A stretch of 64,000 nucleotides of DNA from positions 264,671,609 through 264,735,608 of the forward strand of contig NC_133666.1 of the NCBI RefSeq assembly GCF_037893015.1, given 5' to 3'. Position 1 is the stretch's first letter; every line of letters begins with the position of its first letter. Origin of the DNA: Macrotis lagotis. Taxonomy: Eukaryota; Chordata; Mammalia; Peramelemorphia; Peramelidae. Positions 3,100 to 34,039 of this stretch are shown piece after piece. The position numbers and the translations under genes were made by a program. Under the pieces are notes generated by a model, which did no database searches, was not told the DNA's origin, and saw only the letters and a list, made by a program, of their open reading frames with translations.

Positions 3100-4013
3100 T
3101 TATTCATCTGGAAAGATATATATATCTTCATCTGGAGGATTATTGAGAAAATTAGGTTTCTGGAAATCATAATATTCTGATGAAGTTTTAGTTTCATTTA
3201 AATGCTTCTCAGAAGTAAGTTGGCCTGTATTTTCATAAAGATCTGTTAAACAGTCCCTTGCACAGCTCTTAGGTCCAGTTTCCACATTTTCATAGCTCTT
3301 GTCTGGATCATCTCTGGAGAGAGGAGATGGATCATCTTTTATTTGTGATAACTGTGAAAAGCGCTTTGGACCAGTGTATTCTGTGGGGGTACATGGTGTA
3401 TGAGATAGATCAGAATCATTCTGATACTTTTTCTTGTGCAAAAATCTTGGTAGGGAAAAATTACTTGGGCAGCGGTAGCATTTCCAATACCAGGCTAAGC
3501 CCAGGACACAGAGGAATAGAATTGCTAGAAGAAGAAGAACAATGAGAAGTACAGGGCTTGACTTACTTCCACATAGTTTTTGAAAGTTTATTCCGCAGGT
3601 TTTAAGAGTAGACCATTCATCATTGTTATCAACCACCTTGCAATCCATGCTACATATTTGCAGATTTCTGTTGTTCAGAACTGAAGTTGGAATGGTACAT
3701 AGTTTATTGAATTTCAAGTAGAGTTTTACGTCATTGGAGATATTAGAGAGGAAATTTTTAGGTAAAGCCTCTATATGATTAGAAGACAGATCGAGTAATT
3801 TCAGATTCGGCAGATGGTAGGTTTTGTCATACTCTATGTACTCTACTCCACAGTTATTCAGGTATAGAAATTCTGTTCTTTGATCGATGCTAACCCACTG
3901 CAATATCTTATTCTTCACGAACTTATTACACTCAGAAGTTGAAAAGGATGGGTGAAGATGGCATAAAAGAAAATGCACAAAGAAAAAAGCTGAATGATCT
4001 GTCATTTGGAAAC
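3100..4013 (-). CDS. GAPT: GAPT coding exon: GRB2-binding transmembrane adaptor with an extra LRR ectodomain
   Basis: The ORF runs from ATG at 4005-4003 to TAA at 3102-3100 and encodes 301 residues. In order: a hydrophobic signal-like stretch (about 5-18); a leucine-rich-repeat ectodomain (about 44-115, best match LKLLDLSSNHIEALP at 68-82, then VKLYLKFNKLCTIP); a Cys cluster resembling a short LRRCT cap (C118, C122, C137, C145); one extracellular sequon (N88-I-S); a transmembrane helix (about 152-171); and a tail. The tail matches eutherian GAPT at FSLPRFL, YENVE.GP, LYENTGQ, YY.FQKP and DEDIYI.PD. YENV (Y238) and YENT (Y257) are YxN-type GRB2 SH2 sites. Eutherian GAPT, as I recall it, is about 157 residues and starts just before the membrane helix, so residues 1-145 are extra. 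A splice acceptor (AG at 4015-4014) lies 8 nt before the ATG, so an upstream exon exists, probably 5'UTR. A start codon in that exon cannot be excluded. Gene identity is very secure; the ectodomain reading is secure as coding, and its LRR class is inferred. Confidence 0.93.
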
Positions 4014-4040
4014 CTACAACAAATTATAGATACATTAATT
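4014..4040 (-). other. GAPT: Splice acceptor of the GAPT coding exon
   Basis: Read on the minus strand, a T-rich stretch ends in TTTGTTGTAG at 4014, followed by the exon leader GTTTCCAA and the ATG. It has acceptor form with a moderate pyrimidine tract. I could not place the matching donor or the first exon. Confidence 0.6.

Positions 4041-28181: not shown

Positions 28182-34039
<5,858 letters not shown>

Follow-up and report, generated by a model that had tools for sequence, protein, structure and literature searches.

Origin of GAPT as adaptor or receptor

The GAPT locus of Macrotis lagotis raises the question of whether this gene, counted among the transmembrane adaptors, began as an adaptor or is what remains of a receptor. 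The locus was analyzed in a 64,000-nucleotide stretch of contig NC_133666.1 (positions 264,671,609–264,735,608, forward strand), referred to below as the window, whose positions serve as coordinates. In this window, the GAPT coding exon encodes a leucine-rich repeat (LRR) ectodomain in front of the membrane helix and the signaling tail. The best explanation of the evidence as a whole, to which we give a probability of about three in four, is that GAPT began as a receptor of the LRRC25 kind and that erosion of its ectodomain followed in eutherians.

Architecture of the GAPT exon

The GAPT coding exon occupies positions 3100–4005 of the minus strand, where one open reading frame (ORF) of 301 codons and a stop codon runs without interruption from the ATG at 4005 to 3100, as the original prediction had read from the DNA. 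The Pfam model PF11770 (GAPT) matched residues 143–300 (E 4.1e-44, 150.6 bits against a cut-off of 21.1), and this match, together with the polo-like kinase and RAB3 genes on either side, upheld the assignment to GAPT. Its product is most likely a type I membrane protein. The ectodomain would consist of roughly three LRRs between caps, followed by a single membrane helix and a disordered tail with YxN motifs that would recruit GRB2. The eight bases preceding the ATG (4006–4013) are presumed 5′ untranslated region. They directly follow TTTGTTGTAG, a plausible candidate 3′ splice site with its AG at 4014–4015.

The hydrophobic N-terminus (residues 1–24; 3934–4005), with a mean identity of 83% among eight marsupials, was taken as a putative signal peptide. 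Approximately 120 residues separate it from the membrane helix, and the ectodomain was delimited as residues 25–147 (3565–3933). The LRR solenoid core (residues 45–119; 3649–3873), with model strands at 46–48, 70–72, 93–96, and 115–119, includes the LRR motif LLDLSSNHIEALP at residues 70–82 and the sole ectodomain sequon, N88-I-S. Alignment placed Cys 118, 122, 137, and 145 in a C-terminal cap (residues 118–145; 3571–3654). The motif, the cysteine cap, and the sequon that the DNA had suggested were all present. Seven Cys follow the signal peptide; six are common to other marsupials, and Cys 103 occurs in the window protein alone among the marsupial GAPT records.

A hydrophobic stretch that is helical in the structural model forms the membrane helix (residues 151–177; 3475–3555). 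The cytoplasmic tail (residues 178–301; 3103–3474), covered by PF11770, is predicted to be disordered, with a predicted local distance difference test (pLDDT) score mostly below 50. It contains two YxN motifs of the GRB2-SH2 type, namely YENV (residues 238–241; 3283–3294) and YENT (residues 257–260; 3226–3237). The Y-E-N of both is invariant in all 20 long GAPT records. The other two of the four marsupial YxN motifs, YGNE and YYNF/YYNV, were lost in Macrotis lagotis; the seven other marsupial records compared keep all four. The region of this loss lies at 3163–3204 (residues 268–281). The C-terminal DEDIYIFPDE (3103–3132) aligns with the C-terminus of LRRC25 (DEEEYVIPG and similar).

The fold was predicted with AlphaFold2 in five models. 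Residues 31–120 formed an LRR solenoid with a pLDDT of ~90, and a sequence search of solved structures returned LRR proteins, the best being Leptospira LIC10831 with an E of 3.8e-13, a score that sums many weak repeat matches. These predictions support the view that the N-terminal part of marsupial GAPT is a real LRR ectodomain with a solenoid fold. Three results speak against such a fold. The LRR_8 match (residues 47–102, E 7.1e-5) reached 22.9 bits and so fell below the Pfam cut-off of 27, which only Dromiciops (27.3) passed among the seven other ectodomain-bearing marsupials; the mean pLDDT of the five models ranged from 63.4 down to 43.6; and a Foldseek search with the model gave no PDB match at an E of 0.001 or better.

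Conservation and constraint of the ectodomain in marsupials

A search with the full-length protein returned nine proteins, i.e., the window's own and eight other marsupial records. Seven of these eight (Dromiciops, Notamacropus, Phascolarctos, Petaurus, Antechinus, Monodelphis, and Sarcophilus; 282–300 amino acids) keep the frame and carry the whole ectodomain, although the Sarcophilus record ends before the C-terminus. The stops or frameshifts in other marsupials that would have spoken against a conserved ectodomain were therefore absent from these seven, and because they retain it in full, a chance origin of the ectodomain ORF is very unlikely. The exception to this breadth is the Trichosurus record of 170 amino acids, which begins at a Met inside the C-terminal cap and is due either to an artefact of the gene model or to a truncation in a marsupial. 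Mean pairwise identity among eight marsupials, the window protein included, was 56% in the ectodomain and 68% in the tail. Cys 26, 52, 118, 122, and 145 were found in all eight, and Cys 137 in seven.

A decayed copy of GAPT lies 56 Mb from the gene in the same genome (C9:320446741-320447641). It contains stops and insertions, and spans both ectodomain and tail. In the ectodomain, gene and copy differed in amino acid at 41 of 112 paired codons, three of them stops in the copy. At these 41 positions, other marsupials had the residue of the gene alone in 21 cases, that of the copy alone in 5, both in 7, and neither in 8. The corresponding values for the tail, where 33 of 122 codons differed (two stops), were 15, 8, 3, and 7. 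Since the residue of the gene is the commoner one among marsupials, the copy has changed more than the gene. This comparison, a small test with one copy, suggests that the ectodomain is under constraint in Macrotis lagotis, at least as clearly as the tail, and it agrees with the selection proposed for it earlier.

The insertions in the copy match repeats of the window, and its flank at the far end contains the apparent start of an endogenous retroviral element. The copy was also considered as a retro-copy that would prove splicing, and was rejected as such: it begins a few bases before the ATG, has an L1-like 5′ flank, and contains no upstream exon, so that it proves nothing about transcription.

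The marsupial ORF could be intact while the working product is short and the ectodomain is not made, and the Trichosurus record, which begins inside the cap, would fit such a product. However, the alignment column in which the short eutherian proteins start (see below) is occupied by Phe, Ile, Leu, or Thr in the marsupials and by Met in none of the eight; the window protein has Met only at residues 1 and 120; and the ectodomain looks constrained. We therefore regard a short marsupial product as very improbable, and the full ORF is presumably transcribed and translated.

Long, mid-length, and short GAPT in eutherians

GAPT outside marsupials was collected by a search whose seed combined two GAPT tails from marsupials with one human LRRC25 tail. 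Of its 122 hits, the 120 that were listed comprised 9 marsupial GAPT (including that of the window), 37 further GAPT, and 74 LRRC25-like records, the last being LRRC25 records or unnamed proteins without the GAPT domain. Thirty of the 37 further GAPT records carry eutherian names, and the remaining seven were placed among these on a tree. Twelve of the 37 are 273–288 amino acids long, 6 are 161–245, and 19 are 151–158.

The 12 long records have a homologous signal peptide and ectodomain, and their alignment with marsupial GAPT extends from the initial Met through the whole tail. Nine of them are named (Propithecus, Rhinolophus, tiger, Ictidomys, hippopotamus, Camelus, dog, Tupaia, and Hyaena). 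The short records start at a Met that is internal in the long ones, where it stands within "AEMLKSCGN"; all 19 begin with Met-Leu except that of Jaculus, which begins with Met-Ser. Five mid-length records (P0051, P0065, P0072, P0074, and P0132) retain from a few to ~20 cap residues before this Met. They include those of sloth, armadillo, and Glossophaga, as well as one related to Glossophaga and one near hippopotamus and camel. The record nearest to human among those fetched is that of the Old World monkey Pygathrix, with 157 amino acids. Hence the earlier statement that the start of the short eutherian protein coincides with the end of the ectodomain was borne out, but the statement that eutherian GAPT lacks the ectodomain was contradicted by the 12 long records and, in part, by those mid-length records that keep scraps of the cap.

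The original prediction had left it open whether eutherians lost the ectodomain or marsupials gained it. A gain would mean that GAPT was short at first and acquired the LRR ectodomain by fusion in marsupials. Human and mouse have the short form, and just over half of the 37 records (19) do not exceed 158 amino acids. Nevertheless, the 12 eutherian records in which signal peptide and ectodomain are homologous, the cap scraps in mid-length records, and the similarity of GAPT to LRRC25 over its whole length (see below) are at odds with a marsupial gain, which we consider extremely improbable. The homologous eutherian sequences indicate that the ectodomain is ancestral to therians, so that the alternative of a eutherian loss stood, in the form of an erosion. 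The ancestral state is shown within therians only, because no monotreme or sauropsid GAPT was present among the 120 of 122 hits listed. A search with a marsupial profile returned marsupial GAPT and other LRR proteins alone; neither the long eutherian GAPT nor LRRC25 was among its hits.

Probable erosion of the eutherian ectodomain

The eutherian state is an erosion of the ectodomain and not its clean absence. All 12 long eutherian records have a deletion of eight residues inside one repeat (window residues 88–95), and in all 12 Cys 118 is replaced. Four of them (camel, Rhinolophus, P0083, and P0129) miss at least one of Cys 26, 52, and 137. The nine named long-form species are all boreoeutherian, and it is for this group, as distinct from xenarthrans and afrotherians, that the deletion is documented. 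When the long form of Propithecus was used as AlphaFold2 target with the same 20 sequences, its ectodomain reached a pLDDT of only 33–48 and formed no solenoid. As one target in one program, this model is a pointer to unfolding rather than proof of it.

On a tree of the shared part, at least eight changes between long and short were needed when mid-length records were left out, or ten when they were counted as short. Clades without a long record here were mouse-like rodents (four records), mole-rats (two), heteromyids (two), rabbit and a relative (two), and xenarthrans (three). From the sequences, these look like true losses, and the short-form species would then have lost the upstream coding sequence. 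Mixed sister pairs (e.g., Suricata/Hyaena and Microcebus/Propithecus) suggest that isoform choice in annotation is partly responsible, and for this reason no number of real losses is given. In the 245-residue isoform X2 of Camelus GAPT (P0076), a different N-terminus is joined inside the ectodomain beside the eight-residue eutherian deletion, which suggests a splice site within the old exon.

The ectodomain might also work unchanged in kind in long-form eutherians, with no erosion and only a loss in some orders. Mean ectodomain identity among the 12 long forms is 56%, equal to that among marsupials, and Cys 26, 52, and 137 are all present in eight of the 12. On the other hand, the repeat deletion and the replaced Cys 118 are common to all 12, the four records named above have lost further Cys, and the Propithecus ectodomain was modeled with low confidence. 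An unchanged ectodomain thus appears rather improbable, and erosion is preferred.

Probable relation of GAPT to LRRC25

The UniRef name of the Sarcophilus GAPT record, "Leucine rich repeat containing 25", provided the lead to LRRC25. Profiles of the 20 long GAPT records and of 67 LRRC25-like records (those of at least 285 amino acids among the 74) were compared with hhalign. GAPT columns 28–287 aligned with LRRC25-like columns 26–306 with a probability of 97.2%, a score of 82.8, and ~21% identity over the aligned columns, while the highest score among 200 whole-length column shuffles was 28.5. The eight marsupial GAPT alone scored 75.8 (shuffle maximum 27.1). The ectodomain alone scored 38.1 (20.7), or 42.0 (24.4) with marsupials only (199 shuffles each), and the tail alone, from the 20 long records, 36.2 (22.4; 200 shuffles).

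GAPT and LRRC25 tails have their motifs in a common order: YENV/YENM, YxN, YxN-L/F-Q, and an acidic C-terminal YxxP. When the tail was shuffled in blocks that keep the motifs and break their order (150 shuffles per block size), the real score was reached in local mode by none of the shuffles with blocks of 6, 8, or 12 columns and by one with 16 columns; in global mode, it was reached by none at any block size. Among the 67 LRRC25-like records, the tail has three YxN in 55, two in 10, and four in 2. A strict pattern of the acidic C-terminus fitted 46 of them and missed 21.

According to passages in the literature, LRRC25 shares one human chromosome 19 locus with PIK3R2, RAB3A, PDE4C, SSBP4, and ELL (PMC5897035), and in chicken is grouped with RAB3A and PDE4C on chromosome 28 (PMC7379350). 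The GAPT neighbors RAB3C and PDE4D parallel the LRRC25 neighbors RAB3A and PDE4C. The RAB3-PDE4 blocks are presumably products of early vertebrate genome duplications; a literature search for a description of them as such found none.

The similarity could instead have arisen between unrelated proteins, from generic LRRs and convergent GRB2-binding motifs, and several results weigh on this side. When compared with the GAPT profile, 33 LRR decoys taken from the marsupial-profile search scored up to 67.4 and ten single LRRC25 sequences 42.5–71.6, so that single LRRC25 sequences do not stand out by score, most being equaled by decoys. The marsupial tail alone matched the LRRC25-like profile weakly (23.3 against a shuffle maximum of 20.5, probability 10.9%). 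Human LRRC25 scored only 7.5 bits in an hmmsearch with the marsupial GAPT profile, and had no match to the Pfam GAPT model. A six-frame search of the Macrotis lagotis genome with the same sequence gave no usable match (best E 0.4); LRRC25 may have diverged strongly here, may be divided among small exons, or may have been lost from this species.

Against convergence, the two tails, which contain no LRR, also match on their own with their motifs in the same order, and the overall match spans the cap, the membrane segment, and the C-terminus. No LRR decoy aligned beyond column 144 of the GAPT profile, whereas eight of the ten LRRC25 sequences extended past column 230, six of these reaching column 287; the other two ended at columns 166 and 88. 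Moreover, the RAB3 and PDE4 neighbors of the two genes show a corresponding paralogy. Taken together, we judge it unlikely that GAPT and LRRC25 are unrelated, and favor their common origin.

Genomic neighborhood

A polo-like kinase gene (28182–34036, plus strand), recognized by Pkinase and POLO_box matches in its exons and named PLK2 by its position, stands head to head with GAPT. On the opposite side, a RAB3 gene in the same orientation as GAPT, read here as RAB3C, has its first exon ~109 kb from GAPT. A passage in PMC6119347 names ACTBL2, PLK2, GAPT, RAB3C, and PDE4D together at human 5q11.2. With the polo-like kinase on one side and the RAB3 exon on the other, the window gene is the GAPT locus between PLK2 and RAB3C. 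The genes that mark the LRRC25 locus (RAB3A, PDE4C, SSBP4, and ISYNA1) are not those found beside it, and its polo-like kinase and RAB3C-type neighbors make it a paralogue of LRRC25 and not LRRC25 itself. An Rfam scan of the whole window returned no matches.

Comparison with known proteins and proposed history

The window protein shares the membrane helix, the tail, YENV/YENT, and the gene neighborhood with the human and mouse form of GAPT, the transmembrane adaptor described by PF11770, and differs from it by the ectodomain. As characterized in a review (PMC4861716), transmembrane adaptors have only a few extracellular residues and are unlikely receptors. The window protein has ~120 such residues, and its tail contains the several tyrosine motifs for SH2 adaptors that are typical of the group (YENV and YENT). 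LRRC25 (MAPA) is described in PMC6107485 as a leukocyte protein of 305 amino acids with LRRs, type I membrane topology, and a YENM motif. The window protein is colinear with LRRC25 from the N-cap to the C-terminal end in the profile-profile comparison only; LRRC25 differs in its location (19p13.11, as opposed to the equivalent of 5q11.2) and in an extra cysteine-bearing stretch between cap and membrane. With GPIb-alpha, Toll-like receptors, and variable lymphocyte receptors, it shares the fold only, i.e., an LRR solenoid with capped ends, and no common tail. The solenoids of these proteins are mostly longer.

In the literature searched, which covered few subscription journals, no statement was found on GAPT as an LRR-ectodomain protein or as a relative of LRRC25. 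Long GAPT sequences are already public under the name GAPT, so the sequences themselves are not new. The review PMC4861716, which cites Liu and Zhang 2008 as the original GAPT paper, reports increased B-cell proliferation and antibody amounts in mice without GAPT, and no tyrosine phosphorylation of GAPT after Fc-epsilon-RI triggering. GAPT is also named in a passage on positively selected candidates in the bowhead whale genome paper (PMC4536333).

We propose that GAPT and LRRC25 most likely descend from a single ancient LRR immune receptor, as its two copies retained in duplicated chromosome blocks. The folded GAPT ectodomain would have persisted in marsupials as the ancestral therian form. 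The ancestor of the long-form eutherians seen here would have lost part of one repeat, and in several eutherian lineages the ectodomain would have decayed further or been dropped. The remainder, begun at an internal Met just outside the membrane, would be the small adaptor of human and mouse. Judging from LRRC25 and other LRR receptors, the ectodomain of marsupial GAPT may bind a protein or glycan on the same or another cell, and the tail may gather GRB2, in which case such binding could control GRB2 recruitment. A receptor that had lost its trigger would fit a damping adaptor. We lean slightly toward the fuller version of this history, in which GAPT and LRRC25 would be the surviving pair from early vertebrate genome duplications of one GRB2-recruiting LRR receptor, and eutherians would be dismantling the GAPT ectodomain stepwise, from a ligand-controlled receptor to a ligand-free adaptor.

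If this reading is true, GAPT is by origin a receptor remnant and not an adaptor, which would explain why eutherian GAPT has a signaling tail without an extracellular trigger. It predicts a ligand or partner for marsupial GAPT, and LRRC25, as the sister, should bind GRB2 via the same motifs. The step from receptor to adaptor could then be traced species by species in living mammals.
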